Part shown: positions 45,164 through 61,780 of the stretch, one piece after another
Position numbering within the stretch: position 1 is the first letter of the stretch
Layout: each line of letters starts with the position of its first letter
Assembly (NCBI RefSeq): GCF_900105675.1
Contig: NZ_LT629786.1
Span: 5,890,001-5,954,000 of the forward strand
DNA length: 64,000 bases
Source of the DNA: Pseudomonas synxantha
Lineage (GTDB): Bacteria; Pseudomonadota; Gammaproteobacteria; Pseudomonadales; Pseudomonadaceae
Direction: 5' to 3'
Program-made: the position numbers and the translations under genes
Notes under the pieces: model-generated
Told to the model about the DNA's origin: nothing
Databases searched by the model: none
The model's input: the letters and a program-made list of their open reading frames with translations, nothing else

Positions 45164-45651
45164 TATCAAACTCTGAGAGGCTGCTTATCCATGCGTTAGC
45201 TGTGGAGTTAGCGGGAGCTGCTTGGCAAACCATCGACAGATGCTGAGCGATTGCGCAATGTGCGGAGCGCCAGAGGCCTTAGGGCCTAGGCGTTGGAGAC
45301 GCTTAGAATGTGTGAGGCATAGGGACAAAAGAGAAATAAATCTCGCTGAGCGCATTATTTCCGGCGCCTGATAACGACACGATGACCTCGTGATTACAAT
45401 GCTGACAGAAATGCAATAACTGCTGTTTTAATTGCCATCGACCAGGCTATGATAAAAATTAGGGCGACACCATCTATTAAACGCAGAGCACCGCTCAGCT
45501 AGATAAATTTAATTTCACAAACAAAACGGCTTCGTTTTGACGTAGGCTAATTTTGAACTTTCACTTTAACTTACAAGTCTTTCTCGCGAGCAGAACATTC
45601 TTTTCAACTTTTGCTCGTTAATATGTCACCCATCAATGAGGGGCGAATACC
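45164..45651. other. Intergenic region between eptA and the zinc-ribbon gene
   Basis: A 488-bp AT-rich stretch between divergent genes with no credible gene. It holds the shared box at 45392-45407, preceded by GATAACG at 45370, and a small hairpin AAAACG-GCTT-CGTTTT near 45523. Confidence 0.7.
45392..45407 (-). promoter_or_regulatory. Shared box upstream of eptA
   Basis: On the minus strand TGTCAGCATTGTAATC, pointing to eptA 229 bp away. The identical 16-mer occurs at 54814-54829 before the gtr operon; related copies are at 48026, 51292, 51400 and 61734. Confidence 0.6.
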
Positions 45652-45990
45652 ATGAGCTTTTTCAAAAATATCCTGGGCGGGCACCATGGCCGTGGAAACC
45701 ACGGTGGAGGCAAGCACCACAGCGGGGGACATGGGGCCGAGCAATACGATCGCCATGGCCGGCAGCAGGGCTGCGACGGCGGCAACCAGGTGTATGACGG
45801 CGGGCGCCATGCCACTCCAGCCCCCATTAAAGATCTGCAGGGCTGCAGGCAGTGCCGGACGGCCAACGATCCGTCAGCACGCTTTTGTCTAAACTGCGGA
45901 ACACCACTATCGAGTGGTTGCACCGCCTGTGGCTCGTTGCTGAGCGCAGGAGCAAAATTCTGCAGTCAGTGTGGCCAAGCGACGCTCTAA
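45652..45990 (+). CDS. His/Gly-rich double zinc-ribbon protein
   Basis: A 112-residue protein. The first half is rich in His and Gly (GGHHGRGNHGGGKHHSGGHG), the second half has two zinc-ribbon pairs: CRQC with CLNC, and CTAC with CSQC. No signal peptide is evident. A histidine-rich tract beside a CDF exporter gene fits a cytoplasmic metal buffer or chaperone, but this is inference. GAGGGG lies before ATG 45652. czcD follows 54 bp downstream on the same strand. Confidence 0.8.
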   Translation: MSFFKNILGGHHGRGNHGGGKHHSGGHGAEQYDRHGRQQGCDGGNQVYDGGRHATPAPIKDLQGCRQCRTANDPSARFCLNCGTPLSSGCTACGSLLSAGAKFCSQCGQATL

Positions 45991-46044
45991 CGATAGGCAG
46001 ACAGGAAGGCCAACGAGACCACAACCCTGCGCAAGGAGAAATAC

Positions 46045-46950
46045 GTGGGTTCAAATCATGACCATGGCAGCGCTGCAGTACGCGAGGGGCATCAGAAGAA
46101 GCTAATCATGGCGCTCGCCTTGACTGGCAGCTTCATGATTGCAGAAGTGATCGGTGCGTGGATTACCGGCAGCCTGGCGCTGCTGTCTGACGCATCCCAC
46201 ATGTTCACAGATACTGCCGCCTTGGCGATCTCACTGATTGCACTTCAGATAGCCAAGCGCCCGGCGGATCAGAAAAGAACCTTCGGCTATGCGCGCCTGG
46301 AGATTCTGGCTTCGACGTTCAACGCCGTGCTGCTCTTCCTGGTGGCGATGTACATCTTGTACGAGGCCTACCAGCGCTTTTTCATGCCGGCGGAGATCGC
46401 TACCGGGGCGATGATGTGGATCGCAATCGCCGGCCTGATCATCAACCTAATCTCGATGCGCCTTCTGGCATCTGCGAGCAACGAGAGCCTTAACGTCAAA
46501 GGCGCCTACCTCGAAGTTTGGAGCGACATGCTCGGCTCGCTAGGCGTAATCATTGCAGCACTCATCATCCGCTTCACGGGCTGGACCTGGGTCGACACGA
46601 TTGTCGCTGTGGCAATCGGACTTTGGGTACTGCCGCGGACGTGGCAGTTGCTTCGCGAAAGCCTGGGGATTCTCATGGAGGGTGTGCCGAGGGGGCTCGA
46701 CGTTACGGCAATCGAGGCCACCATCCGCGGCGTAGATGGGGTCACGGACGTTCATGACTTGCACGTCTGGGCCGTCAGCAGTGGCAGCAACGTGATGACG
46801 TCGCACGTAGTGGTACGGGATTCTGCAGATGGGGATGCTGTGTTGGCGGCCGTCGTGGATGCTGTCAGCGATGGATTTGAAATCCATCACTGCACCATCC
46901 AGATCGAGCGGGCAGCTTTCCACGAGAGCGTTCCCTCGCCCTCGCACTGA
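46045..46950 (+). CDS. czcD: CDF-family metal exporter CzcD-like
   Basis: A 301-residue cation diffusion facilitator that exports Zn2+, Co2+ or Cd2+ from the cytoplasm. Six helices are visible, with the metal site SDASHMFTDTAAL in helix 2 and YLEVWSDMLGSLGVI in helix 5, then a C-terminal cytoplasmic domain (DLHVWAVSSGSNVMTSHV). The N-terminus is His-rich (GSNHDHG). GTG 46045 has AGGAG seven bases upstream, which decides the start. Probably in one transcript with the zinc-ribbon gene. Confidence 0.95.
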   Translation: MGSNHDHGSAAVREGHQKKLIMALALTGSFMIAEVIGAWITGSLALLSDASHMFTDTAALAISLIALQIAKRPADQKRTFGYARLEILASTFNAVLLFLVAMYILYEAYQRFFMPAEIATGAMMWIAIAGLIINLISMRLLASASNESLNVKGAYLEVWSDMLGSLGVIIAALIIRFTGWTWVDTIVAVAIGLWVLPRTWQLLRESLGILMEGVPRGLDVTAIEATIRGVDGVTDVHDLHVWAVSSGSNVMTSHVVVRDSADGDAVLAAVVDAVSDGFEIHHCTIQIERAAFHESVPSPSH

Positions 46951-47107
46951 TCGATCGGTAAACACCATGCAGACACATCCCCTTCCTGGCTGAGGGGGAT
47001 GTTGTAGAAGAAATGCGATGAGGGATGGCGTAAACGGCAGGAGCACTTCGAGAGGGGTTGGAGAATGGCTTCACCTCCCCCGTCCACAATCCCCAGAAGG
47101 TTCAGCG

Positions 47108-47458
47108 ATGGCTTGGATCATCACGAAGTACCTACTCACTGCCGGAATAGTGATTCTCGTATCAGAGCTGGCGAAACGCAGTGACAAGCTGGGCGGCCTG
47201 GTCGCCGCCCTACCCCTGGTCACTGTCTTGACGCTGGTCTGGCTCTATTTGGAGAACCAGAGCATGGAGAAGATCTCCAATCATGCTTGGTACACGTTCT
47301 GGTACGTGCTTCCTACACTGCCGATGTTTATCGCGTTCCCGTTGCTGCTACCTAAGCTCGGCTTCTGGCCGACCCTTATCAGCAGCATCCTCATCACAAT
47401 GGCCAGTTTCGGATGTTTCGCCGTACTGCTGCGCCGGTTCGGCATTGAGCTTCTATGA
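47108..47458 (+). CDS. DUF3147-family membrane protein
   Basis: A 116-residue inner-membrane protein with four predicted helices (ITKYLLTAGIVILVSELAKR, then DKLGGLVAALPLVTVLTLVW). It matches DUF3147, a family often found next to czc/cus efflux genes; role unknown. ATG 47108 follows AAGG. 157 bp downstream of czcD and probably in the same operon. Confidence 0.85.
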   Translation: MAWIITKYLLTAGIVILVSELAKRSDKLGGLVAALPLVTVLTLVWLYLENQSMEKISNHAWYTFWYVLPTLPMFIAFPLLLPKLGFWPTLISSILITMASFGCFAVLLRRFGIELL

Positions 47459-47490
47459 TCCGGCGACCGCAGACATCATCTTGATGAGCC

Positions 47491-47817
47491 TTAACGGCTG
47501 TTAATACACTCGCCCTTCACCAGGTAGCGAACCATGTGCAGCTCGCCTTTCGAGTCTTCGTAGGTCATCATACTTCTTACATTACCGCAGTACCGCACGC
47601 TGGGTGATACATACACCAACTTACCAACGTCAAGGTCCATACCGTAGGCATAGTCTTCAAGTTGAGGCATGGGCTTTTTTACGCGCTGAGCATAATCCGC
47701 AGTAGCCTCTCTAGCAGAACGCTCAATGCGTTGGTTTATTTCCATACCGCTTTGTGCATTGGCTGTTAGTGATGTGAAGAGCATAAACACGGCGATCGCT
47801 GATACAGTAGTGTTCAT
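47491..47817 (-). CDS. DUF2790-family periplasmic protein 1
   Basis: A 108-residue exported protein: signal peptide ending at TANA, then YAQRVKKPMPQLEDYAYGMD, LDVGKLVYVSPSVRYCG, MMTYEDSKGELHMVRYL and a conserved C-terminal cysteine (GECINS). This is the DUF2790 family, abundant in Pseudomonas and often induced by metals; function unknown. AGGGA precedes ATG 47817. Its 5' leader holds three hairpins, the last followed by a T-run just before the ribosome site. Confidence 0.9.
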   Translation of the reverse strand: MNTTVSAIAVFMLFTSLTANAQSGMEINQRIERSAREATADYAQRVKKPMPQLEDYAYGMDLDVGKLVYVSPSVRYCGNVRSMMTYEDSKGELHMVRYLVKGECINSR

Positions 47818-47837
47818 AAGAAGTCCCTTAATAAAAA

Positions 47838-47967
47838 AGCGCCCGTAGGGGGGCGCTAAAATTCACCTACCAAAGGAGCGTATGGTTTACAGGTGAATGC
47901 ATTGACGAGAACAACTGCCCGCTGCTCTTGCCAAGCTGCTTTGAAATGAGACAATTTCCAAAGCAGC
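47838..47967 (-). promoter_or_regulatory. Structured leader with terminator before DUF2790 gene 1 (attenuator candidate)
   Basis: Read on the minus strand towards the gene: hairpin A, GCTGCTTTG with CAAAGCAGC (plus-strand 47935-47967); hairpin B, ATTCACCT with AGGTGAAT (47861-47898); hairpin C, AGCGCCC with GGGCGCT (47838-47856), followed by TTTTTT and then the AGGGA ribosome site. Hairpin C plus T-run is an intrinsic terminator sitting in the gene's own leader. A short frame MHSPVNHTLLW overlaps hairpin B. No known riboswitch class is recognised. Confidence 0.6.
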
Positions 47968-48025
47968 GATGCCTCTTCCGCTGCCCTTAAACTAGCAAAG
48001 GAGGCTAACACCAAGATGATCGCGC

Positions 48026-48041
48026 AATTACAATTTGGACA
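48026..48041 (-). promoter_or_regulatory. Shared box upstream of DUF2790 gene 1
   Basis: On the minus strand TGTCCAAATTGTAATT, 12 of 16 positions identical to the eptA box, pointing to the DUF2790 gene 209 bp away. Confidence 0.5.
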
Positions 48042-48318
48042 TGTAATAGATTGTAAGGTAATTATTCGGGAGACTACTGAGCCACCAAGTGAACTAATTC
48101 GCAGAAAGGCGTAGCAGTTCGCGGCCGTGCATGGGGACTGCCTGCGTGGCGCACTCGATGCAAGGCCAGCGCCAGTCTCTGCAAGCTGGCGACCGAAATA
48201 CTGCCTGTCATGGCCGATTCCGCCTGTCAGGCGAAGCTGTCATACACCGTCGCAGACCCCAGAATCCGCTAAGCTCAGAGCTGGAGCCTGCATGACTGTC
48301 AGAAATCTTGCGGCTACA

Positions 48319-48332
48319 TTACAAATTTGTAG
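48319..48332. promoter_or_regulatory. Palindromic box upstream of czcR
   Basis: TACAAATTTGTA (48320-48331) is a perfect 12-bp palindrome sharing the TTGTA half of the other boxes. It lies about 175 bp before czcR and may be an autoregulatory site. Confidence 0.45.
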
Positions 48333-48506
48333 GATTTCGCCGCGGCCAGCTTCTTCGCGTTAAGATTCAAGCGTCCTCAGGTGACCCGGCGTATGGACAG
48401 AGGTAGCGACTACCACATGCCATACCCTCAGCCTATCTTTCGAACAGCCTGCAACCATAATCTTGGCGGATTAGGCCAACTCCTTCCTCACACCTTGAGA
48501 TAAGTT

Positions 48507-49181
48507 ATGCGCGTTCTAGTTGTGGAAGACGAAATTAAAACTGCCGAATATCTTCAGCAGGGCCTATCCGAAAGCGGGTATGTCGTAGATATCGTGCACA
48601 ACGGTGTAGATGCCCTGCACTTGTTCAACACTAATGTCTATTCGTTGGTCCTTCTGGACGTGAACCTCCCCGGTATCGACGGCTGGGACCTGCTGGAAAC
48701 CATCCGTAAGACCAGCCGGGTCCGCATCATCATGCTGACCGCCCGCGGACGCATCAATGACAAGCTCAAGGGCTTGGACGGCGGCGCGGATGACTACCTT
48801 GTGAAGCCATTCGAATTCCCTGAACTGCTTGCTCGCATCCGTTCGCTGCAACGCCGTGGTGATGAGTTGGTCGAGAAGAGCTCGCTGAAAATTGCGGATC
48901 TGGAACTCGACTCCGTCCGCCATCGCGTCTTCCGCGGTGGCACACGCATCGATCTCACCACCAAGGAATTTGCGCTTCTGCACCTGCTCATGAGCCGAAC
49001 GGGCGAAGCGCTGACTCGTTCCCAGATCATCTCGTTGGTCTGGGATATGAATTTCGATTGCGACACCAATGTCATCGATGTAGCCATCCGGCGCTTGCGC
49101 TCGAAGATCGATGACCCGTTTGAAACCAAGCTCATTCACACGCTTCGTGGCGTTGGGTACGTTTTTGAGGAACGCGCATGA
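48507..49181 (+). CDS. czcR: OmpR-family response regulator, CzcR-like
   Basis: A 224-residue response regulator. Receiver domain with acidic pocket E7/D8, phosphorylation site D51 in [12 protein letters not shown] and the conserved Lys in DYLVKPFEF; the C-terminal OmpR winged helix contains [16 protein letters not shown] and [12 protein letters not shown]. It matches the CzcR/CopR/CusR metal-responsive group. ATG 48507. It overlaps the sensor gene by ATGA. Plausible reader of the shared boxes in this region. Confidence 0.9.
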
Positions 49182-50596
49182 GGCCATTCAGCCTGGCTGC
49201 AAAGCTGGGGTTAAAAGTTGGGTTGATGAGCGCAGCGTTGCTGCTTCTGTTCGCCACCTTTGGCTATCTGATGGTAGGTAAGGCTCTGGAAAGAAATGCC
49301 CGAGCGGACCTGGAAGTAAAGATGGCGGGGATGGCTCACAACCTGTCCACCATCCCGGATATCTCCGGCGTCAACGCAGATGCACATCAGCTTGTCGATT
49401 TGGTCATGGGCCACAACAACCTGTATGTGAGCATATTCGATACCTCACAGAATCAGACTCCTCTGCTCTCGATTGGCTCGAAACAGGTCAATCTGGAGGT
49501 GCACAAGTTTCAGCCGGCGGCCCAGCCTAAAGAGCATGAATGGCGTGATACGCAGGACCGTCCTCTGCTGAGTGCTTCTCGGATCATGCGCTTGGGCGAT
49601 GGAACAGAGGTCAGCGTCTATATGACCATGGACCAGTCATCCAGTGAGGCACTGCTTGATGCGTTGCTGACTTGGGCCTTGATGATGTCCCCCGTCATCC
49701 TCGCACTGATCTTGGCCATTGGCTGGTGGACCGTGCGCAGAGGCCTGCTGCCGCTGACCAAATTCCTCAAGGTGGCGTCAAAGATCTCAACGGAGAGCCT
49801 CGACCATCGTCTTCCGACTGATGGGATGCCGGCAGAACTCAAGAAGCTCGCCGACGGCATCAACATCATGCTGGCTCGCCTGGATGATGGCGTTCAGCAG
49901 CTCTCGCAGTTCTCTGACGACCTTGCCCACGAACTTCGAGCACCGCTTTCCAACCTGATGGGCAAGGCCCAGGTTGCCTTGACCAGAGAAAGATCGCTTT
50001 CCGAGTACCGGGAGGTTCTAGAGTCGTGCACAGAAGAGTTGGACCGCATGAGCCGCATGGTTTCCGACATGCTGTTCTTGGCCCAGGTCAGTCACCCTGC
50101 GTCCATGGTGGAGTTCGAACCGGTGTCCCTGGTCGACGAGGTTCAGCGCGTATGCGACCTCTTCAGCATTTCGGCAGAGGAAGGCGAGATCCAGCTGCAG
50201 ATTTCTGGGAGTGATGATGTGGTACGCGGGAACCGCCTGATGGTTCAACGGGCCGTCTCAAACCTCGTGTCGAACGCGATCCGCTACTGCCCTCGCGGCC
50301 GCACGGTCTACGTGAAGGTGCAGCATAGTGCGAGCGGTACGACCTTGAGTGTCGGCAACCCCGGCCGCGGTATTGCCAAGGAACACCATGCGCACTTATT
50401 TGAGCGGTTCTACCGTGTGGACAAGAGCCGAGCACGGAGCGAAGGCGGTACCGGTCTTGGCTTGGCCATTGTGCAGTCGATCATGAGCCTGCACCAAGGG
50501 TCGGCGAGCGTGGAGGTGACCGAAGAAAACTTCACCTGGTTCCACCTTCACTTTCCCGCAGCCCAGCAACTGCAGCCAGCAATGACCGCCGCTTAA
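49178..50596 (+). CDS. czcS: Heavy-metal sensor histidine kinase, CzcS-like
   Basis: A 472-residue inner-membrane sensor kinase: helix 1 at about residues 12-33, a periplasmic sensing domain of about 130 residues, helix 2 near 165-185, HAMP, then the H-box [15 protein letters not shown]-box [11 protein letters not shown] and G-box [12 protein letters not shown]. Length and the [12 protein letters not shown] form fit the heavy-metal sensor subfamily (CzcS/CopS/CusS). Coupled to czcR. A terminator follows at 50615-50640. Confidence 0.92.
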
Positions 50597-50614
50597 ACCG
50601 CGCAGACATGATTA

Positions 50615-50640
50615 GGCCCGTCCATCGACGGGCCTTTTTG
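50615..50640 (+). terminator. Intrinsic terminator after czcS
   Basis: GGCCCGTC and GACGGGCC form an 8-bp stem with a four-base loop, followed by five T. Confidence 0.9.
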
Positions 50641-50653
50641 TTTGCTCAATGCA

Positions 50654-51241
50654 TCAGTGCCGGAGGACCACAGGGTCCATAGGCGACCGCAGAATCACCG
50701 ACTTGATGATCTTCTGCTCGTCAGGATTGGCGTTCTTCCACAGGTGTGAGAAGTACTGAGCATTCACTTTCTCTTGAGCACTTACGCTGCCGGCGGCATC
50801 GATCAGGCGCATGGTCGAGTAGACACAGATCAGCGCCAGAATGAAGAACGACGTGGCGACCACCATCACATAACGCTTGGCCAGCACCGGTGCCCGCTTG
50901 AGCTCCTGGATAGAGGCGTCCGCCGCCTTTGTCGCTGCTGTAAGCTCCGAGATCAGTGGCTGGATGGCGGTGTCGACTCCGCGGCATGCAGCTGAATACG
51001 CTGATGCAGCGGCGCGCAAGGCAACCTCCTCCGCGTTCGACCAAGCCTTCTCCGCCTTTCGCACCTCCTCCTGAATCTGCCGGCCGACAGCGTCCACCTG
51101 CTCCACCAGTTCGTTCGACCTCTCCAGAACAGCGCTGGAGGTCCGCGTCTGCGAGGTCAGCTCATCGAGCTGGACAGTGAGTTTTTCAGTGCAGCGGCGA
51201 AAGTCACCGATAGCAACTGCCCAGGGCTCTATGTCATTCAT
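50654..51241 (-). CDS. Hypothetical coiled-coil membrane protein
   Basis: A 195-residue protein, not recognised. Residues 1-115 are predicted alpha-helical coiled coil (TEKLTVQLDELTSQTRTSSA and VDAVGRQIQEEVRKAEKAWS), then one transmembrane helix (YVMVVATSFFILALICVYS) and a short C-terminal part. AGGAG precedes ATG 51241. A shared-type box lies 51 bp upstream. Its position in the metal module is the only hint to its role. Confidence 0.75.
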   Translation of the reverse strand: MNDIEPWAVAIGDFRRCTEKLTVQLDELTSQTRTSSAVLERSNELVEQVDAVGRQIQEEVRKAEKAWSNAEEVALRAAASAYSAACRGVDTAIQPLISELTAATKAADASIQELKRAPVLAKRYVMVVATSFFILALICVYSTMRLIDAAGSVSAQEKVNAQYFSHLWKNANPDEQKIIKSVILRSPMDPVVLRH

Positions 51242-51291
51242 GGCTATCTCCTAGGGCGGCCAACAACGCCGCGCTGAATTAACGCGCTAGA

Positions 51292-51307
51292 TATCAAAAT
51301 TGTAATT
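51292..51307 (+). promoter_or_regulatory. Shared-type box 1 before the PtrA-like gene
   Basis: TATCAAAATTGTAATT, 12 of 16 positions as in the eptA box, oriented towards the gene at 51508; it also lies directly upstream of the divergent coiled-coil gene. Confidence 0.5.
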
Positions 51308-51399
51308 TAAGAGAAAATTCTTAGTCGCCCTCGACAGTGCCGAGATAGACATGATCCTTCCAGATTTGAGGATTTAACGCATCCTGCCTGCCGCCAAAA

Positions 51400-51415
51400 T
51401 TACGGAATTGTAATT
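51400..51415 (+). promoter_or_regulatory. Shared-type box 2 before the PtrA-like gene
   Basis: TTACGGAATTGTAATT, 11 of 16 positions as in the eptA box, oriented towards the gene 93 bp downstream. Confidence 0.5.
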
Positions 51416-51507
51416 ATTGACTCACCTTGTCGTTAGCTTCGCGTTCCTAAACTACAAACCAACAAAGGCCGCTAATCAGGCAGGCCTAGTATGAACCGAG
51501 GTTCACA

Positions 51508-51729
51508 ATGAAATTTGTCAAATCTATCGCTATTGGCAGCCTGCTGCTGGGTCTCATGGGTACCGCTTACGCTGAAGGTGGCTTCGAGCGAGCGAAACAG
51601 TTCAATGAAAACTTCCGAACCGAACAGGCTCGCCTATGGAGCGATGACTCTTCGGACCAGAACAAACAACAAGTCGCTCAAGAGCAAAAGAAAGAAAGCA
51701 AGGATGGTAAGGAACAAGCCGACAATTAA
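51508..51729 (+). CDS. Small exported protein, PtrA-like
   Basis: A 73-residue protein: signal peptide MKFVKSIAIGSLLLGLMGTA ending at AYA, then EGGFERAKQFNENFRTEQAR and a highly charged Lys/Gln/Asp-rich tail. The EGGxER start of the mature part resembles the N-terminal domain of PtrA, a metal-inducible small periplasmic protein of Pseudomonas; this match is from memory and weak. Two shared-type boxes lie upstream. Confidence 0.7.
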   Translation: MKFVKSIAIGSLLLGLMGTAYAEGGFERAKQFNENFRTEQARLWSDDSSDQNKQQVAQEQKKESKDGKEQADN

Positions 51730-51770
51730 TCGGCGGTTAAATAGGACTTCAAATGACGAAAGAAATCGAC

Positions 51771-51800
51771 AAAAAAGCCAGGATAAAACCTGGCTTTTTT
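51771..51800. terminator. Bidirectional terminator
   Basis: AAAAAAGCCAGG and CCTGGCTTTTTT form a strong stem with A and T runs on either side. It serves both the PtrA-like gene and the converging glycosyltransferase operon. Confidence 0.9.
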
Positions 51801-51811
51801 GTGCTTGGAAT

Positions 51812-53266
51812 TTAGCCTTCGTTCTTGCGAGGCGTTTCCGCATTGCTTTCTCCAGCCAGACCCTCGGCACCTTGTACGGTACGTTTCCAATGGCACAGCA
51901 TGAGCTGGCTGGCGTTCGCTTCGGTGATCGCTGTACATGCTAGATCAGCGGGCAGACCATCCTTGCTGTCTCGCAAGCGCCTGGACAGATAGAACGAGCC
52001 ATCCTGCGGCCACTTGGCAGGATCCTTGATGTTCTCGGACTTTCCGCTGCTGTAAAACTCCGACGAGTATGAGCGGCGGCCAGGATAGATCAGGGGAGCG
52101 GAATGAGCAGACTGCACATTGAGCCAGGCTTGAACCACATCTCGCTGATTCTGAGGTCGCTCCTCAAGTACCCCGGCGTAGATGATGCCCGCACCGATGA
52201 TTGGTAACACCAATGCACTCGCCGCGGCAGCCCATGTAGTCTTCGGGCCAACATCGCTGATCCGTCCGGATAGCAGCAATGCCCAGGCTGGCAGCGCAGG
52301 TAGCAGGTAGGTCCACAGAATGTTGCCTGCAAATGTGAAGAAGACCGGTGTCGCCAAGGCCCACAGCCAGAGGTAAGCCTCGAAGCGCTGCATTGATTCA
52401 CGCTTGCGGATCAGTAATGGTAAGAAAAAGGCCCACGGCAGTAGCGACAGTCCGAGCTGGATCCAGATGGTGCCATATGGCTTGGCATGAGCACTGCCGT
52501 ATAGGTCGCCCGCCCAGTTACTGACGACGTAGCGGCTCCAGTGCTCACCAACGAAGAAGTACTCCATGAAGCCGGGCGTTTTCATCTCGGCCGCGACATA
52601 CCAAGGCACGGATATACCGAACATGAGTACAAGGCCGCTGATCCAGGGAAGCCTCAGTACCCGTCCCCATTCCTTGTAGATAACGAACCAGGCGAATGCC
52701 GGCGCCCCCATAAGCACTAGGGTCAGAGGGCCTTTGGCAAGCAAGCCCAGCCCGAGACCTGCGAACATCAGGTAGGCATCCGCCTTGCTGGCGCACTTCA
52801 TCCAACGCCAGAAACCGTAGCTGGCCAGCAGAATCGAGAACGACAAAACAGGGTCGGTCAGCACGACACCGCTGGAGACTAGGCCAAGGGTGGTGCTGGA
52901 AAAGATAATGGCGGCCCAGATGCCGGCGTTACGGGAAATCTGCTGCGTGCCGAGTTTGATGATGATGAAACAGCTTGCCAGGTGCAGCAGCCACGCCGGG
53001 AAACGCGCAGCGAACTCGTTAACGCCGAAGACCGTCATGCTTGCGGCCTGGGTCCAGAAGGACAACGGTGGCTTGCCCCAGAACGGTACCCCGTAGTCGA
53101 ACATGGGCGTGATCCAGTCATTCAACTCGACCATCTTGCGAGCCATTTCAGCGTAGCGAGCCTCCGATGTGTCCATCAGTGGATAGATGCCCAGCCCCAC
53201 CAAACGCAAGAGCAAAATCGAACCCAGGATCCACCACAGCGTCCGCTCGTTTTTCAGGCTCAGCAT
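51812..53266 (-). CDS. ArnT/PMT-family (GT39) membrane glycosyltransferase
   Basis: A 484-residue membrane glycosyltransferase with about ten to twelve helices. The ArnT/PMT signature DTSEARYAEMARKM follows the first helix (the DE-type acidic pair that binds the acceptor), and WGKPPLSFW and GLGLLAKGPLTLVLMG are typical of the family. ArnT transfers aminoarabinose from undecaprenyl phosphate to lipid A; this shorter protein may move another sugar. It follows the GtrB-like gene with a 7-bp overlap. Confidence 0.85.
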   Translation of the reverse strand: MLSLKNERTLWWILGSILLLRLVGLGIYPLMDTSEARYAEMARKMVELNDWITPMFDYGVPFWGKPPLSFWTQAASMTVFGVNEFAARFPAWLLHLASCFIIIKLGTQQISRNAGIWAAIIFSSTTLGLVSSGVVLTDPVLSFSILLASYGFWRWMKCASKADAYLMFAGLGLGLLAKGPLTLVLMGAPAFAWFVIYKEWGRVLRLPWISGLVLMFGISVPWYVAAEMKTPGFMEYFFVGEHWSRYVVSNWAGDLYGSAHAKPYGTIWIQLGLSLLPWAFFLPLLIRKRESMQRFEAYLWLWALATPVFFTFAGNILWTYLLPALPAWALLLSGRISDVGPKTTWAAAASALVLPIIGAGIIYAGVLEERPQNQRDVVQAWLNVQSAHSAPLIYPGRRSYSSEFYSSGKSENIKDPAKWPQDGSFYLSRRLRDSKDGLPADLACTAITEANASQLMLCHWKRTVQGAEGLAGESNAETPRKNEG

Positions 53267-54243
53267 TTCTTACCCTCGATCGAGGCCATCGAAGGGTGGA
53301 GTGACACGGGATCCGCCTTGCTGCTGTGCTTCAGGAAATAGAGAGGCCGGCGCTTCACTTCCGCGAGTGTCACGCCCAGGTACTCCCCCACCATGGCGAC
53401 ACCGACGCACATGAATGAAGCCATTCCGACGATCAGGTGATGGATGTCGAAACTTCCTGCCACAAGCGACGCAAGCATGTAGCAGATGCTGGAGACGAAA
53501 AGACCGAAACTGATGAGGCTGAAAATGCGCAGCGGTTTGCGAGAGAAGCTGACGATGCTTTCGATGGCCAGATTGAACAGGCCAGCTGCATTCCACTTGG
53601 TGCTGCCGGCATGGCGAACGGTGCGATTGTAGGGCAGCTCGATGGTACGGAAGCCTACCCAGCCGATCATGCCTTTGAGAATCCTGGAGCGTTCGTCCAG
53701 CGCCCGCAGTGCTGCCAGCGGCGCAGGCCCAATCAATCGGAAATCGCTGACATCGGCCGGCATGTCCACCTTCTCCACCAGGCGCTGCATGACCCAGTAG
53801 TAAGCCCGGGCACTCATGCGCTTAAACCACGAATCACCGACTCTCAGGTTGCGTTGCATGTTCACCACGTCGTAACCGCGTTGCCAGTGGTCCACCATGG
53901 CCGAGATGAGCTCTGGTGGGTCCTGCAGGTCGACATCGATGAAGATCAGCGCACTGCCACGGGCATGGTCTATCCCGGCGCTGAGTGCAGCCTCTTTGCC
54001 GAAGTTGCGACTCAGGGACAGACAACGTACAGATGACCCATCCTGATAGTGGCGAAGAATGTCGGCCGTTCGGTCGTTACTGCCATCGTCGATATAGAGG
54101 ATTTCGCAGGAGACGGGTAAGCGCTTCACGACGCGGGTGATCCGCTGGTGGAACTCGGGGATGGTTTCCTCTTCCTGGAAGCAAGGGACGACGATGGTTA
54201 ACAAGGGATCAGGGCGCTCGGGAAAGCGATGTAATGTCTGCAT
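53260..54243 (-). CDS. gtrB: GtrB/ArnC-like polyprenyl-phosphate glycosyltransferase (GT2)
   Basis: A 327-residue GT2 enzyme: LLTIVVPCFQEEETIPEFHQ, then the nucleotide site YIDDGSNDRT and metal-binding DVDLQDPPEL, followed by two C-terminal helices (SLISFGLFVSSICYMLASLV and VGMASFMCVGVAMVGEYLGV). It should load a sugar onto undecaprenyl phosphate at the inner face of the membrane. ATG 54243; overlaps gtrA by 35 bp. Middle gene of a gtrA-gtrB-GT39 operon. Confidence 0.9.
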   Translation of the reverse strand: MQTLHRFPERPDPLLTIVVPCFQEEETIPEFHQRITRVVKRLPVSCEILYIDDGSNDRTADILRHYQDGSSVRCLSLSRNFGKEAALSAGIDHARGSALIFIDVDLQDPPELISAMVDHWQRGYDVVNMQRNLRVGDSWFKRMSARAYYWVMQRLVEKVDMPADVSDFRLIGPAPLAALRALDERSRILKGMIGWVGFRTIELPYNRTVRHAGSTKWNAAGLFNLAIESIVSFSRKPLRIFSLISFGLFVSSICYMLASLVAGSFDIHHLIVGMASFMCVGVAMVGEYLGVTLAEVKRRPLYFLKHSSKADPVSLHPSMASIEGKKC

Positions 54244-54628
54244 GATTGAATGTCCAAAAACGATGTGCAATGAATCCAAGTGCAGTGAGGCTTAAGGTCA
54301 CTACAAGTTGGGAGATGAGCGGTGACAGATTCGACTTGATGAGGAACCACATACCCACGCCATTGCCGAAGTTTGTGGCTAACGCGACCAGTGCAAACCT
54401 GACAGGCTGAAACTTACGAGAGCCATCTGACACAAAGCAGAGCGCCCTATTTCCAATAAAGCTTGCGATAGCGCCAACCATGCCTCCACAGATACTGGCT
54501 AGCAATGGAGTAGATAATTCTGTCGTAACCAGCACTAGGAACACCGCATAATGGATTCCCGTTGCTATGAAGCCGATCCCCAGATAACGAATCAGTAAGG
54601 TAGTAAGAGGTAGGGTTTGATTTTCCAT
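54209..54628 (-). CDS. gtrA: GtrA-family flippase-like membrane protein
   Basis: A 139-residue protein with four predicted helices (LIRYLGIGFIATGIHYAVFL, then GAIASFIGNRALCFVSDG) and a C-terminal FIAHRFWTFNH typical of GtrA. GtrA proteins are thought to flip the lipid-linked sugar made by GtrB. First gene of the operon. ATG 54628 is preferred to TTG 54634. The identical 16-bp box found before eptA lies 185 bp upstream. Confidence 0.88.
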   Translation of the reverse strand: MENQTLPLTTLLIRYLGIGFIATGIHYAVFLVLVTTELSTPLLASICGGMVGAIASFIGNRALCFVSDGSRKFQPVRFALVALATNFGNGVGMWFLIKSNLSPLISQLVVTLSLTALGFIAHRFWTFNHADITSLSRAP

Positions 54629-54813
54629 GCCCAAAGCCTATGGAGGCAAAGGTGAAAAAAAAGTGAACCAAATGTAAATGCGTAATTGGCTAAATTTAGA
54701 TCTGCCAAGTAATGAAATTGGCGCGCTAGGCTAGCACGCTACAATATCAGCAAGATTGCTCGAAAATTACGCTTTCGAAATAAAACCTTCCGATAACGCA
54801 TGCATGACCTGCG

Positions 54814-54829
54814 GATTACAATGCTGACA
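54814..54829 (-). promoter_or_regulatory. Shared box upstream of the gtr operon
   Basis: On the minus strand TGTCAGCATTGTAATC, identical to the eptA box. Beyond it, ATGACCT and GATAACG occur at the same spacings as near eptA (GATAACG 22 bp to the left of the box start on the plus strand in both). It also lies 57 bp before the divergent LysR gene. Confidence 0.6.
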
Positions 54830-54885
54830 AGATAAGGAAATGCTGGGTGGCATTGAGATAGATTCCCCGAATTAAGGGGGACCCA

Positions 54886-55854: not shown

Positions 55855-56064
55855 CAGTTTTGTTAGGTTTCAAACTCTCCTGTTAACACTACAGAAACAC
55901 AACTGTCATATTCGCTTGCAATCTAGTCAGAGTGCTTAGAACAAAGGCATCTTGTTACAGCAGGTGACAACCGTGGCCTGCTCCCATCTGCAAGATAAAT
56001 TTAGGCCGACGAAGGGCGAAATACAACGTCGGTAGCTAAGCACTTAACATACGAGAGGCAAGCA

Positions 56065-57372
56065 ATGATCCGTTCTTCGAACATGCGGGAAAAGCTGTTG
56101 GCTGCCGCAATAATAGGCACATTTTCCTCGCAAGCATTCTCCGGAACAGTAACCACTGACGGAGCTGACATCGTTCTGAAGACCAAGGGCGGTCTTGAAG
56201 TATCGACTTCTGACAAGGAATTCAGTTTCAAACTGGGCGGTCGCGTTCAGGCCGACTACGGCCGTTTCGATGGTGTCTTCACCAAGAATGGCGATACCGC
56301 TGACGCCGGCTACTTCCGTCGCGCCTACCTTGAGCTCGGCGGCGTTCTGTACCGCGACTGGAAGTATCAGCTCAACTACGACCTTTCCCGCAACACGGGC
56401 AACGACTCCGACGGTTACTTCGACGAGGCCAGCCTGACCTACACCGGTTTCAAGCCCGTCCAACTGCGATTCGGTCGTTTCTACACCGACTTCGGTCTTG
56501 AGAAAGCCACCAGTTCGAAGTGGACCACTGCCATGGAGCGGAACCTCTCGTACGACCTGGCGGACTGGATCAACGACAACGCCGGCATGGGTGTTCAAGC
56601 CACCAGCACCATCGCTGACATGGCTTATGTCTCCGGTAGCGTTTTCAGCGAAACCAACAACAACTCGGATGGCGACAGCACCAAGCGCTACAACGCACGT
56701 GCCGTGTTCGCACCGCTGCACAGTGATGGCAACGTCCTGCACGTCGGTGCTCAGTACGCTTACCGCGACCTCAAAAACAGTGCGGTCGATACCCGGATTC
56801 GTTCGCGTCTTGGCGTTCGCGGTGTAGATACCAATGGCGGCGGCGATGCCGGCACCAACGGCAACCGCATGCTGTTTGGCGGTGCCGCCGCACAAGATGG
56901 CCTGTGGAAGGACGATTCGGTCTGGGGTCTCGAAGGTGCCTGGGCCACCGGCCCGTTCTCGGTGCAAGCGGAATACCTTCGCCGCAAGCTGAAAGCTGAC
57001 CAGGCCAACAGCGACATGAAGGCCTCTGGTTACTACGCCCAGATGGCTTACACCCTGACCGGCGAGCCGCGTATCTACAAGCTCGACGGTGCCAAGTTCG
57101 ACACTATCAAACCAGAGAACAAGGAACTGGGGGCCTGGGAAGTTTTCTACCGCTTTGACGATATCAAGGTCGAAGACGGCAACCTGGTCACCGCAGCGGA
57201 TCAATCGAACGAGCGCAAGGCCAAGAGCCACACTGTGGGTGTGAACTGGTATGTCAACGAGGCAGTGAAACTCAGTGCCAACTACATCAACGTGCGTACT
57301 GACAATAACGAGAACACCGTGGGCGACGACAGCGGCAATGCAATCGTGACCCGCCTGCAATACGTCTTCTGA
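56065..57372 (+). CDS. OprP/OprO-family phosphate/anion-selective porin
   Basis: A 435-residue outer-membrane protein of the phosphate-selective porin family. Signal peptide ends near SQAFS; the mature part opens [20 protein letters not shown], then [37 protein letters not shown] and the terminal TRLQYVF with final Phe. In P. aeruginosa OprP/OprO take up (poly)phosphate under limitation. Here it sits in a metal module, so an oxyanion role is possible. A terminator follows. Confidence 0.92.
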
Positions 57373-57397
57373 TCCCTCTCATCAGTCTGACGTGAGA

Positions 57398-57428
57398 AAG
57401 CCGGAAGCGCTCAATGTGCTTCCGGCTT
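57398..57428 (+). terminator. Intrinsic terminator after the OprP-like gene
   Basis: AAGCCGGAAGC and GCTTCCGGCTT form an 11-bp stem with a nine-base loop, 25 bp after the stop. T-run is weak. Confidence 0.7.
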
Positions 57429-57670
57429 CCCTGTTTCTGACGTGATCGAGCTTGGAGCGTCCTCCTCCTACCTGCTCTCGCTCACCTGATGACCTCTCTT
57501 GCCAAAACTCGGCGAATCTGGTGTGATTGCCGCGTCGGGTTTTGCATGGTGGCCGTGCAAGCAAACCAAACCTGACTCCTACTCATGATTGAACCTGATT
57601 CGACGTCCAGCTTCGCGTCTAACGGCCCTACAAGCGCAGCTACCCCAACGTCGCTCATTAGGGGATAGTC

Positions 57671-58696
57671 ATGTCTGCCAAAAAGCTGCTTCAACCTCTC
57701 GCTGCTCAGCTGCACGCCTCATTCTCGGCTTCCGGTCGCCCGTACGCTCACCAGCACATTCACCAGTTGCTCCACGCTGCCATTGGCTCCGTCTCCCCAG
57801 AAGTTGACTCCCAAGACAATCTGCCAATCCAGGTATGCCGTGACAGCGACAGGCAGTACAACCTCTACGAGACGATTGAGCGGGCGAAAAAGTGCTTGGG
57901 ATTGACCGATCTTCAAGCAGTCGGCGTGGCTGAAGAAGTCATCGAAGTACTACGAGCTGCAGGGATAGGCGTGAACCAGGTTCGCCTGCTCCTCGACCCC
58001 TCCTTCACCTCGAAGACTCGTAAAAAGGCATTCAAAGCCCTTTGCAAGAATCTGGATCTGAACGAGCTCGGCGATCGATTCGTCCCGAAAACGGCGACGC
58101 TGGCCATTGCGGCGGGTATGGCACCGCCTCCGAAAATCACGTGGAAAGATCGCTTCGCACTGGCTGCAGATTTCCCTATACGGGGACAGAGCCAGCTCGT
58201 CGAAATGGTGACTCGAAGCGAGTGCTATCTGTGGGTATTTCCGCCGACTGATCATCAAGCTACGGCTTCGGCGAGTCACGACCGCTATTTCGGTGAACAG
58301 ACCCATCCGAGCGCTGAGATGGGCATGGGGTTCACTATCATCGATTCCGGATCGACCCGCCCTAAATTTCCGATGCTCTCCAAACAGCCGGAAGAGACCT
58401 TCATCCAGTATTCACTTTCGGCGCCGATGTGGTTCTGGCGCGCACAAAGTAACACCTGGCGGCTGGGAAACATCCTGCGCTCCAAGATCCTTGACGGGGC
58501 TCCTTGGCATAACGAGCCCTTGAGCGATGTGCTGCCAGGTGGTCTGAAGTCTCTGCCGCGGATTTATGGGTGCACCACCTGCCAAACGCTGTTCGTCGAG
58601 AAACACAGCGGCTATCCGGATGTACCCACTCAGTGCCAATGCGGTGAGGCGAGCAGCACGCGTGACCAAAACGAGTCACCTGCTCTCAATAGCTGA
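57671..58696 (+). CDS. Hypothetical protein with C-terminal zinc-ribbon-like motif
   Basis: A 341-residue soluble protein, not recognised. Helical N-terminal region (SGRPYAHQHIHQLLHAAIGS), a middle region, and a C-terminal CTTCQTLFVEK with CQCGEAS that may bind zinc. AGGGGA precedes ATG 57671. Together with the small gene at 58824 it lies between the porin and czcP; similar unknowns are common on integrative elements, so this may be backbone rather than metal cargo. Confidence 0.7.
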   Translation: MSAKKLLQPLAAQLHASFSASGRPYAHQHIHQLLHAAIGSVSPEVDSQDNLPIQVCRDSDRQYNLYETIERAKKCLGLTDLQAVGVAEEVIEVLRAAGIGVNQVRLLLDPSFTSKTRKKAFKALCKNLDLNELGDRFVPKTATLAIAAGMAPPPKITWKDRFALAADFPIRGQSQLVEMVTRSECYLWVFPPTDHQATASASHDRYFGEQTHPSAEMGMGFTIIDSGSTRPKFPMLSKQPEETFIQYSLSAPMWFWRAQSNTWRLGNILRSKILDGAPWHNEPLSDVLPGGLKSLPRIYGCTTCQTLFVEKHSGYPDVPTQCQCGEASSTRDQNESPALNS

Positions 58697-58823
58697 TTTT
58701 CCTTACGGTGGCGGGCTATGCCCCCCGTTAGGGATTGGCTATGGGAGCGGGATTCGCTCACCCCAAACCTGAAGGCGCCGCCATCTAACCGAGCGATATG
58801 AGCTGAATGCTCGCGGAGTAGAT

Positions 58824-59048
58824 ATGCAGAACAGTACCAACAAACAAGACACCCTGGCGGCGATCAATGCACTTGTGGAGATTGCGTATGATCAGGGATT
58901 TGCGAACGGACAAGGGGTCGGCAATCAAGTCGGTTTCGTAGCCGGTGTCATGAGTCTCAAAGCTGCGTTGGCCTGCGGCTTAAGGCACGGCTCACCTGAG
59001 TGTGGGAAGGCCCTTGAAAGCCTCAAGCGCATCGGGATCGACGAGTGA
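58824..59048 (+). CDS. Small hypothetical protein
   Basis: A 74-residue protein of unknown function (TNKQDTLAAINALVEIAYDQ, then GFANGQGVGNQVGFVAG). Predicted mostly helical, no signal peptide. GGAG precedes ATG 58824. Followed directly by a long hairpin at 59052-59090. Confidence 0.65.
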   Translation: MQNSTNKQDTLAAINALVEIAYDQGFANGQGVGNQVGFVAGVMSLKAALACGLRHGSPECGKALESLKRIGIDE

Positions 59049-59051
59049 GAA

Positions 59052-59090
59052 AAGTACGGGTCGTGCGCTGATCGCGCACGACCCGTACTT
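59052..59090. terminator. Long hairpin between the small gene and czcP
   Basis: AAGTACGGGTCGTGCGC and its complement form a 17-bp perfect stem with a short loop. The following T-run is weak, but its place between convergent genes fits a terminator. Confidence 0.7.
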
Positions 59091-59138
59091 CTACTTCAAG
59101 TCATTTCCCTGCTTAGCTTCATGATTGAAGCTCAGGGA

Positions 59139-61136
59139 TCAGGAGCTTCTGCGGTAGGCCAACAACCGCAAGGCGTTGAAGACGACCAGCAGTGTGGAGC
59201 CCTCATGGATCGCAACGGCGGCACCAATGCTCAAGCCCATGATGGTAGACGGAACCAAGATGGCCACAATCCCCAAGCTGACGAACAGGTTCTGGCGGAT
59301 GATCGATCGCGTGTGACGGCTCAGCCCCACCGCAAATGGGAGTTGCCTGATGTCGTCAGCCATAAGCGCGATATCAGCCGTTTCCAGGGCGACATCAGAT
59401 CCGGCAGCCCCCATTGCGATGCCAACGCTCGAATTGGCCATGGCAGGGGCATCATTCACGCCGTCACCCACCATGGCCACCCTGGCGCTGAGGCGCAGGT
59501 TCTTGATGGCCTTGACCTTGTCTTCCGGCATTAGGTCTCCCCACGCCTCATCTAAGCCAACTTGTTTGGCTACCGCCTCTGCAACGCGGTTGTGGTCCCC
59601 AGAAATCATGACCATGCGGTCGATGCCCATCTCTCTGAGTTTCTGGAGTGCCTCTTTGGCACCCTCTCGGGGTGTGTCCAATAGCCCGATAGCGCCCAGA
59701 TCCTTGTCAGCGCGACGTACCACCATGGTTGTGCGGCCCGACTGACGCAGACGCTCCGCAGCCTCCAAGGCTGCCTTGCTCAGTGCGGGAATACCATTGG
59801 TACCGAACATCTCGACCTTGCCAATCCAGACGAACTGCCCATCAAGCTCGGCACGTACGCCGCGGCCAATCATGTTGCTCATGTTCTTGGCTTGCAATCG
59901 GCGCCGTGTGCCAATCATCTCTTCACCGTCACGCACAATTGCCGCAGCCAGCGGATGGTCGCTCATCGACTCCACAGCGATGGCGACGTTTAGTAGATCC
60001 TCGATCTGCGTGCCGCCTACCGGTATTACATCGGTGATGCGTGGGCGCCCTTCGGTCAGGGTACCGGTCTTGTCGAATGCCATGGCATTCAAGGAGCCGA
60101 GCTCTTCAAGCGGTGCACCGCCCTTGATCAGCACGCCACCTCGGGCTGCCCTGGCGATGCCAGATAGAATGGCGCTTGGTGTTGCGATCGCCAGCGCGCA
60201 GGGGCTGGCTGCAACCAGTACGGCCATCGCCCGGTAGAACGAGTCACGGAACGGCTCATCAAGGAAAATGCCGGCAAATAGCAGCCCGACTACCAGCAGC
60301 AAAACCAACGGGACGAATATGCGTTGGAAGCGGTCCGTGAATCGCTGGGTCGGTGACTTCCTGACTTCGGCTTCACTGACCATCTTGATGACCCGCGCCA
60401 GGGTACTTTCCGTAGAGCGCCGTGTTACCTCAACCTCGATGAGCGTTTCGCCATTGATGGTACCGGCGAAGACTTTCGAGGCTGCATCCACTGCATCTGG
60501 CTTGCTGCGTGCGAGTTCGGCATCAGGGACAGGTTGCTTGTCCACGGGGACGCTCTCACCGGTTACTGGCGCCTGGTTGATACTTGAGGAGCCCACTACA
60601 ACAAAACCATCGGCCGGTAGGCGGTCATTGGGGCGCACGATGACAACGTCACCGGGAACCAGCAGCTCCACAGGCATTTCCAACGTGCCATTTGCTCTGC
60701 GTACGATCGCGGTGGCTGGTGCGAGCTTGGACAGTGCCTCAATCGCTTTCTTGGCCCGCCCCATCGCGTAGCTTTCAAGGGAATGCCCCAGACTGAACAG
60801 GAACAGCAGCAGAGCCCCCTCCGCCCAGGCGCCAATGCTCGCGGCACCGGCTGCGGCGAGAAGCATCAGCGAATCGATCTCGAAGCGTTTCTGGCGGATG
60901 TTGCTGATCGCTTCCTTGGTGGTGAACCATCCACCGAACACATAGGCCGACACGTACAGAATCAGGGGCAGTCGATCAATCAGGTCAAGTTGTCCTGCGA
61001 GAGCTCCGGCACCCAGGAGGGCACCACAGATCAGCGCGAAAATCAGCTCCGTGTTCATGCCAAAAATGCCGCCATGCTCATGGCTATGACCTTCATGCCC
61101 AGCTTGGTCATCAGGGCGTTCAAGCAAACTCTTCAT
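59139..61136 (-). CDS. czcP: P1B-type heavy-metal ATPase, CzcP-like
   Basis: A 665-residue metal-exporting P-type ATPase. It has a His-rich N-terminus (HEGHSHEHGG), no HMA domain, the actuator motif TGES, the transmembrane motif SPC (AASPCALAIATPSA), phosphorylation DKTGTLTEG, MVGDGVNDAPAMA and a C-terminal HEGST in the last helices. SPC with HEGST marks the P1B-4 class (CzcP, CoaT, CtpD) that exports Zn2+, Co2+ or Cd2+; CadA/ZntA have CPC. AAGGGACG precedes ATG 61136. Confidence 0.92.
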   Translation of the reverse strand: MKSLLERPDDQAGHEGHSHEHGGIFGMNTELIFALICGALLGAGALAGQLDLIDRLPLILYVSAYVFGGWFTTKEAISNIRQKRFEIDSLMLLAAAGAASIGAWAEGALLLFLFSLGHSLESYAMGRAKKAIEALSKLAPATAIVRRANGTLEMPVELLVPGDVVIVRPNDRLPADGFVVVGSSSINQAPVTGESVPVDKQPVPDAELARSKPDAVDAASKVFAGTINGETLIEVEVTRRSTESTLARVIKMVSEAEVRKSPTQRFTDRFQRIFVPLVLLLVVGLLFAGIFLDEPFRDSFYRAMAVLVAASPCALAIATPSAILSGIARAARGGVLIKGGAPLEELGSLNAMAFDKTGTLTEGRPRITDVIPVGGTQIEDLLNVAIAVESMSDHPLAAAIVRDGEEMIGTRRRLQAKNMSNMIGRGVRAELDGQFVWIGKVEMFGTNGIPALSKAALEAAERLRQSGRTTMVVRRADKDLGAIGLLDTPREGAKEALQKLREMGIDRMVMISGDHNRVAEAVAKQVGLDEAWGDLMPEDKVKAIKNLRLSARVAMVGDGVNDAPAMANSSVGIAMGAAGSDVALETADIALMADDIRQLPFAVGLSRHTRSIIRQNLFVSLGIVAILVPSTIMGLSIGAAVAIHEGSTLLVVFNALRLLAYRRSS

Positions 61137-61275
61137 AACTCGTCCCTTCTGGGGTCAAGGCTTCCAATTGCCCTCTGCAGTTGGGAGCCGTCGCGGTTGG
61201 TTAGCTAAGACCTATTGCACGGTTTGCCCCGGCCCAGGCGTTAACATGTCAAAACCATGGGGCATCGGGCGTAAT

Positions 61276-61304
61276 AAAAAATGCCAGGCACTGCCTGGCA
61301 TTTA
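61276..61304 (-). terminator. Intrinsic terminator of DUF2790 gene 2
   Basis: TGCCAGGCA and TGCCTGGCA pair around a short loop; on the minus strand six T follow. It separates DUF2790 gene 2 from czcP, so the two are not one simple transcript. Confidence 0.85.
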
Positions 61305-61337
61305 TGAATTCTCTAATTGTTCTGTTCAAATCGTTTA

Positions 61338-61661
61338 CTACTTGTTGTTGATGCATTGCGAATACATCGAGTAACGAACAGTCTTGAGCGTGCCCTGGGA
61401 GTCCTCGAAGGTCATCAACCGTGGGTAGACCTGGCAGGTACGTGGGTCCTGCGACTGACGTACGAACTTAGCAACGTCTATCTTCATGCCATATTTGTAA
61501 TCCTGAATCTCTGGCATTGGCTTGCCATTTTTCTCCGCGTACTTGGCCACTGCGGTCTGGTGCTCCTTGGTGTATTGCAGCTGCTTGCTCTCGGAAAAAG
61601 TGTTGGCCTGCGAAGCCACCGAGAAAACAACAAGTGCAGCAGCGATAATTAGCTTTTTCAT
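61338..61661 (-). CDS. DUF2790-family periplasmic protein 2
   Basis: A 107-residue exported protein: signal peptide ending at SQA, then YAEKNGKPMPEIQDYKYGMK, IDVAKFVRQSQDPRTCQ, LMTFEDSQGTLKTVRY and a C-terminal SQCINNK. A paralogue of the protein at 47491-47817, with both cysteines conserved. GAGAGGG precedes ATG 61661. A shared-type box lies 73 bp upstream, with no structured leader like that of paralogue 1. Confidence 0.9.
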   Translation of the reverse strand: MKKLIIAAALVVFSVASQANTFSESKQLQYTKEHQTAVAKYAEKNGKPMPEIQDYKYGMKIDVAKFVRQSQDPRTCQVYPRLMTFEDSQGTLKTVRYSMYSQCINNK

Positions 61662-61733
61662 AAAACCCTCTCAATTTCAAAACTTCTCGGGCGTAACCTT
61701 AGCAATGCATAGGCATCACCGGCATGACGAGAA

Positions 61734-61749
61734 ACTTACAATTTTGAAA
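61734..61749 (-). promoter_or_regulatory. Shared-type box upstream of DUF2790 gene 2
   Basis: On the minus strand TTTCAAAATTGTAAGT, 11 of 16 positions as in the eptA box, 73 bp from the DUF2790 start. Confidence 0.5.
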
Positions 61750-61780
61750 GGTAAGTGCATCTACTTCACTTTAAACAAAA

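Follow-up and report, generated by a model that had tools for sequence, protein, structure and literature searches.

Which regulatory element, and which regulator, could join genes of metal efflux, lipid A change and small periplasmic proteins on one stretch of a Pseudomonas chromosome? The stretch in question, here called the window, comprises 64,000 nucleotides of Pseudomonas synxantha (C1:5890001-5954000 of a single-contig 6.84-Mb genome) and carries an eptA gene, two DUF2790 genes, a czcRS pair and a gtr operon. A preliminary description had noted a 16-bp box recurring in the intergenic regions of this module and had proposed one regulon, run most simply by the local czcRS. All seven boxes were found at the positions that it gave (45392−, 48026−, 48319, 51292+, 51400+, 54814− and 61734−), and TTGTA of its common core (A)TTGTA is present in 7/7 sites. 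The box looks like the upstream pair of a longer element of four half-sites at 11-bp pitch, aTTAC-N6-GTAAT-N6-RYCAY-N6-GWTAT, which read together give the half-site consensus N-T-N-A-Y. The third and fourth half-sites had been missed, as had a second operator before the gtr operon (54744-54781) and a ColR-type site (54652-54667).

The spacing of the elements was analysed within the genome. In many sites, GTTA follows TTGTAAT after 17 bp; among 19 genome matches to TTGTAAT-N(6-28)-GTTA, ten have a spacer of exactly 17 bp, and these 10/10 lie in metal loci. The third half-site is seen across the genus, where CA stands in register in 80 of 117 distinct matches, the next best shift reaching 21. 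The spacer counted here lay outside the search pattern, and one listed match, lacking CA, was overlooked in the count. Sliding the box matrix downstream gave its two top scores at shifts of 11 and 22. Searched alone, the downstream part (GTAAT-N6-RYCAY-N6-GWTA) has 9 exact matches in the genome, eight of which are sites already known. The ninth is new and precedes an OprD-type porin gene at genome position 241405, with CTGAC-N6 standing upstream although it was outside the search pattern. All 9 precede czc, porin, DUF2790, gtr or eptA genes, and allowing one mismatch yields 28 matches versus 9 in the control. Overall, RYCAY and GWTAT were thus found in the 11-bp register. At three loci (L139, L147 and L153), TTGTAAT-N17-GTTATT matches another recurring promoter-like sequence that lacks the third half-site, each time before a 336-amino-acid open reading frame (ORF) with a similar start.

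The box itself exceeds a random background. With up to three mismatches, the 16-mer of the preliminary description has 12 matches in the window, compared to a mean of 1.96 and a largest count of 5 in 100 shuffles. These are six of the described sites (all but the czcR palindrome), the second gtr site at 54765 and five others (20610, 29972, 41719, 49050 and 61487) that look like chance. In the 6.84-Mb genome, the sequence TNTCANNATTGTAA occurs exactly 8 times, 4 in the module and 4 at 140, 305, 306 and 314 kb; all four outside the module lie near a gene for a CopR/CzcR-type regulator, DUF2790, gtr or CDF. Allowing one mismatch gives 27 matches versus 14 in the reversed control, so that the excess is mainly in exact matches. 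A matrix scan ranked the seven described sites and the missed site at 54744-54781 as the eight best matches in the window; its 12 training sites, all outside the window, are not fully independent because they lie partly in a paralogous island. With an 18-bp box matrix, the seven sites rank first in the window, the weakest three (19.4, 19.0 and 18.0 bits) being close to the best score of 20 random windows (19.2). With a 40-bp model, each of the seven scores above the best random value of 17.7 bits, 51292 barely so (18.7). A matrix built from 20 sites and applied above 15 bits recovered 8/8 window sites and none in 29 loci of the same genome away from metal genes (87,616 bases). In an alignment of 19 sites (seven from the window and 12 others), C occupies position -5 in 19/19 and TTGTAA is present in 19/19 by selection. 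The sites fit the CopR/CzcR/AgrR-type pair (aTTAC-N6-GTAAT-like or published variants) and lie near CopR/CzcR-type regulator or metal-resistance genes, and the upstream pair agrees with the published boxes of CzcR, CopR, CusR and AgrR, in line with the box type that had been suggested.

Conservation of the operator was assessed at eptA in 36 loci, 29 close (83-100%) and 7 distant (37-43%); 28 of the close relatives are labelled Pseudomonas and one is an Idiomarinaceae metagenome-assembled genome. The TTGTAA of the eptA box lies at -230 to -233 of the gene in 29/29 close relatives and is absent from that position in the 7 distant loci, three of which have one elsewhere. In L115-L117, the 450 bp upstream of eptA align mainly over 43 bp, which correspond to the operator, with a weaker 40-bp match near the gene and an 11-bp match besides. 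In diverged relatives, no stretch before eptA is conserved as well as the operator. The boxes before DUF2790 gene 1, czcR, gene 51508 and gtrA are also conserved, in alignments of 7 to 12 sequences. Upstream of gene 51508, conservation is best in a stretch that starts at the end of the operator and reaches into the -10 candidate; upstream of gtrA, it is best at the ColR site.

A search of the genus returned 225 matches in 199 genomes versus 124 in the control, and 21/199 genomes have at least 3 matches versus 0 in the control. The third half-site is present in 23 of the 30 genus loci returned. Homologues of porin, DUF2790, czc, eptA or small-protein genes adjoin 22/23 loci with it and 0/7 without (Fisher p = 4e-6), a test in which the loci are not independent because many are orthologous porins. 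Across the order, the strict form was found in 4/293 genomes, namely 3/9 of the genus (our own included) and 1/284 outside it. By our own reading, the sole match outside the genus precedes a CopC-like ORF; it adjoins a kinase-like ORF and has TATAAA at the place of the -10. All 8 plasmid records with a match are from Pseudomonas, and the module, together with operators, is present on the conjugative plasmids pKF715B and pXWY, the gtr part being absent from the stretch of pXWY read. The sites, their spacing, their conservation and their association with metal loci are direct observations.

Within the module, the common operator stands before lipid A and lipopolysaccharide (LPS) modification genes, DUF2790 genes and genes for small secreted proteins, much as the preliminary description had joined these targets, and immediately beyond the window the same operator also precedes czcC and porin genes. 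The eptA-type phosphoethanolamine-lipid A transferase gene (43466..45169, −; NF028537, 639 bits, cut-off 500) is the sole close copy in the genome; its operator (45371..45408, −) reads CTGTC-N6-GTAAT-N6-GTCAT-N6-GTTAT and is followed by AATAAT as a -10 candidate. DUF2790 gene 1 (47491-47817; PF10976) is preceded by a four-half-site operator at 48005..48042 (−), and DUF2790 gene 2 (61338-61661; Pfam) by one at 61713..61750 (−) whose fourth half-site is weak (GATGC). Upstream of czcR (48507..49181, +; TIGR01387, 342 bits, cut-off 279), a CopR/CzcR-family response regulator gene followed by the heavy metal sensor kinase gene czcS (49178..50596, +; TIGR01386, 448 bits, cut-off 292.55), lies an operator at 48296..48333 (−) with weak half-sites 3 and 4. 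The palindrome described there is present (ATTAC-AAATTT-GTAGG), with its better half directed away from czcR. A box with the upstream pair only (51291..51306, +), lacking a good half-site 3 or 4, stands after a 195-amino-acid ORF (50654-51241) and before gene 51508. The latter (51508..51729, +) encodes a 73-amino-acid small protein with a signal-peptide-like start by inspection and no Pfam match, and has a full operator at 51399..51436 (+; ATTAC-N6-GTAAT-N6-CTCAC-N6-GTTAG) with TAAACT at 51448-51453 as the -10 candidate. Its product has 25 homologues whose legible names are hypothetical or secreted protein; the label 'PtrA-like' was dropped, since Pfam gives no match and none of the homologue names shown is of that kind. 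The gtrA-gtrB-arnT-like operon (51812..54634, −; GtrA and GT2 by Pfam) has a distal operator at 54793..54830 (−) and a proximal one at 54744..54781 (−; 54743-54782 on the 40-bp model) reading ATTTC-N6-GTAAT-N6-GCAAT-N6-GATAT, also present in L113, L115 and the plasmid locus L199. The ArnT-like protein scores 132 bits with NF009784, under its cut-off of 567.

On this evidence, we regard it as probable that four half-sites at 11-bp pitch, followed about 10 bp on by a -10-like hexamer, form an activation site of the CopR/CzcR family. Most likely, phosphorylated regulators of this family would bind the operator as two tandem dimers, the downstream pair would cover the -35 region, and the bound regulator would recruit RNA polymerase when the cell is stressed by zinc or cadmium, and possibly by copper. 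The predicted targets in the module are eptA, both DUF2790 genes, the 73-amino-acid secreted protein and the gtrA-gtrB-arnT-like operon, with its two operators and ColR site; just outside the window, they would be czcC, an OprD-type porin gene and a 49-amino-acid ORF. Binding, cooperativity, activation, the inducer and the acting paralog we infer from sequence. As to the hexamer, 12/20 sites of the genome have TANNNT at a distance of 38-40 bp from the first T, versus a mean of 1.4 elsewhere. Given a correct predicted start, transcription from this later -10 would leave eptA a leader of about 180-190 nt. The leader (45164-45350) is poorly conserved in L115-L117.

Several results speak against the four-part operator. 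The total for TTGTAAT-N(6-28)-GTTA is about that of the reversed control (19 versus 17); as the total is not above the control, the evidence is in the spacing. When one mismatch is allowed, TTGTAAT-N17-GTTA is matched 43 times in the genome versus 32 in the control. The first half alone gives no distinct peak at shift 22, about as many genomes of the genus are matched at least once as in the control (114 versus 108), and many sites are paralogous or orthologous and hence non-independent. At 51292, RYCAY and GWTAT do not stand in register and there is no downstream pair, and the downstream pairs at the czcR (48319) and DUF2790 gene 2 (61734) sites are weak. The box may instead be one operator of two half-sites, the second of them also serving as the -35, with GTTATC 17 bp on as the -10. 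Seventeen base pairs are the usual sigma-70 spacing, with which this layout agrees, and the best weighted -10 score is at position 26, inside GTTATC (6.1, compared to 5.9 at position 40). Additionally, published boxes consist of one pair, and the footprints at P. putida KT2440 czcC1 and czcC2 span about 25 bp, as is expected for one pair (PMC8469834). We nevertheless consider two half-sites unlikely, because this leaves unexplained both RYCAY in its 11-bp register (80/117) and the separate TANNNT slot (12/20), and GWTAKC makes a poor -10. That the repeats merely reflect shared descent of duplicated promoters, without function, is barely credible. A paralogous island at 296-314 kb would fit such descent, but the register is fixed across promoters of unrelated genes, the operators are conserved against diverged flanks, and one match lies at a porin gene far from both islands.

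As to the regulator that would read the operator, nine candidates in the genome pass the TIGR01387 cut-off, and several of these share a nearly identical recognition region. Control at the level of the family is very likely, whereas sole control by the local czcRS pair is doubtful; the proposal of one regulon is well supported in its common CopR/CzcR-type operator and not, given nine family members, in the local czcRS as its controller. It is almost as likely as not that the operator is read mainly by another member (a core CzcRS of, for example, the PP_1438 type, the orphan CzcR next to the window, or a CopR), with the local pair minor or repressive, a possibility that is compatible with four half-sites. 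The KT2440 footprints of aTTAC-N6-GTAAT were made with PP_1438, named CzcR3 (PMC8469834), whereas the window pair resembles PP_0029 (czcRS1) by gene order in the papers. CusR, CopR and CzcR share one such site in P. paraeruginosa (PMC11195947), the strict form outside the genus precedes a CopC-like ORF, and czcRS1, constitutive in strain X4 and there repressed by Zn and Cd (PMC4581181), is also constitutive in KT2440 (PMC6066579). In favour of the local pair, its CzcR is 95-100% identical in the relatives carrying it (best tblastn segments), whereas neighbouring proteins fall to 59-82%, the pattern to be expected where a regulator has to fit many operators. Also, metal resistance is lower in X4 czcS1 mutants, and the effect of czcS1 on czcA is positive (PMC4581181). 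We had considered that the 36-bp CzcR3 footprint of KT2440 (-133 to -98) might lie at the counterpart of the promoter of the orphan regulator beside the window, where the coordinates are close (-135 to -97); this was dropped because CzcR3 in PMC8469834 is PP_1438 and not PP_0047.

A second regulator is suggested at the gtr operon, where 54652-54667 (−) matches exactly the published ColR consensus (T/C)(T/C)NA(C/G)NN(T/C)TTTTT(C/G)AC, searched in the form ending CAC. The surrounding 54636-54685 is identical at 48/50 positions to the footprinted site region of PP0035, our only sequence link to KT2440, and PP0035 is a footprinted ColR target (PMC2689224, PMC4074579). It could be argued from this that the envelope genes answer zinc via ColRS and that the CzcR-type boxes there are incidental. 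We consider this very improbable. No other exact ColR match was found in the window (one with a single mismatch lies inside a coding ORF), so eptA has no such site. Among the ColR-activated promoters tested, only PP0035 retains partial zinc-promoted activation without ColR (PMC4074579), and the two gtrA operators are conserved. At 1.5 mM zinc, PP_0035, PP_0033 and opdT1 rise 127-, 54- and 97-fold in KT2440 (PMC6066579); the zinc data come from P. putida strains, other than the source strain. The CzcR-type operators before gtr may explain the partial ColR-independent zinc response.

Further observations concern the sites and their neighbourhood. Before DUF2790 gene 1, the box is flanked at 48027-48057 by extra half-site-like elements (ATGTAAT and GATTGTAA), conserved in 10 relatives save for one base in L115. 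The better half of the operator faces away from the regulator gene at 48319− and, in genome coordinates, at 5959727−, 297224+ and 312467+, and towards it at 140428−. Two of the four away-facing sites lead into a similar 49-amino-acid ORF, L032 (C1 5959631, −) and L030 (297324, +), each downstream of an operator divergent from czcR and with a conserved HWCSHELHR; an unannotated metal-related micropeptide is possible. The second, paralogous metal island at C1:296-314 kb (L030, L031) has operators of its own. Its czcR is 82% identical to that of the window and has atypical substitutions at positions that are conserved elsewhere; this copy may be in decay. Downstream of the operator at 313935, no gene is evident; an eptA remnant behind it was unconvincing (a single translated match of 30 residues, E 5e-4, and none at the DNA level). 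The genome has 8 DUF2790 genes, three with operators; others at 140, 1165 and 2230 kb adjoin OmpR-type regulators and one at 241 kb adjoins the OprD-type porin, and a wider link of this family to metals is possible. By curated models the window also holds a CDF transporter, and its Pfam families include LysR, OprO/P porin, P-type ATPase and RND pump.

The CopR/CzcR/AgrR box itself is already known, as are extra in-phase half-sites at some AgrR operators. The CzcR box of KT2440 (aTTAC-N6-GTAAT; PMC8469834) is the same pair with the same spacing at the related genes czcC1 and czcC2. Its published consensus holds one pair, to which the window operators add the downstream pair and the eptA, gtr, DUF2790 and small-protein targets; a 36-bp footprint at one KT2440 promoter, described with three half-site-like motifs, would suit more than two half-sites. 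The P. aeruginosa CzcR motif (GAAAC-N6-GTAAT; PMC13209446, PMC10581170) shares the GTAAT half and the spacing, but differs in the first half and covers 16 bp only. To the CopR/CusR sites (CTGACA-N5-GTAAT; ATTCATnnATGTAAT; PMC11195947), those of eptA and the 241-kb porin compare well, fitting CTGNC-N6-GTAAT; the passages concerned describe one site common to three regulators and no downstream pair. A parallel in layout is the AgrR box of Cupriavidus metallidurans (ATKACANNNNTGTMAT; PMC7380067), which has the same core, extra in-phase direct repeats and a class II position, and whose promoter-proximal extra repeat is needed for full activation. There, the extra repeats occur at some operators, up- and/or downstream, whereas here two downstream half-sites stand at a fixed 11-bp pitch at most promoters. 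With the ColR site of PP0035 (PMC2689224, PMC4074579), the gtr operon shares a matching region, and the CzcR-type operators are additional to it.

The pho box of PhoB likewise consists of tandem 11-bp direct half-sites covering the -35 region. This is a resemblance in the way of working and not membership, since half-site sequence and regulator differ. In a literature search of partial coverage, neither CzcR control of eptA, gtr or DUF2790 nor a four-half-site rule for Pseudomonas was found. Nor did the literature searched show a fixed form with four half-sites, a recurrence of this form in the genus, or eptA, gtr, DUF2790 and small-protein genes as targets.

The four-part rule is more selective than the one-pair motif, which occurs at many PAO1 positions (PMC13209446): its downstream part has 9 exact matches in 6.84 Mb. 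It also offers a testable cause of the partly ColR-independent zinc activation of PP0035. We put forward, tentatively, that regulators of the CzcR/CopR family may activate through a four-half-site operator across Pseudomonas, and that on islands and conjugative plasmids this would join lipid A/LPS modification, porins and small secreted proteins to the czcCBA metal switch. Metal alone would then change surface charge, and the downstream pair would decide which box-bearing promoters fire. In this way, metal exposure would be tied to surface-charge genes carried on conjugative plasmids.

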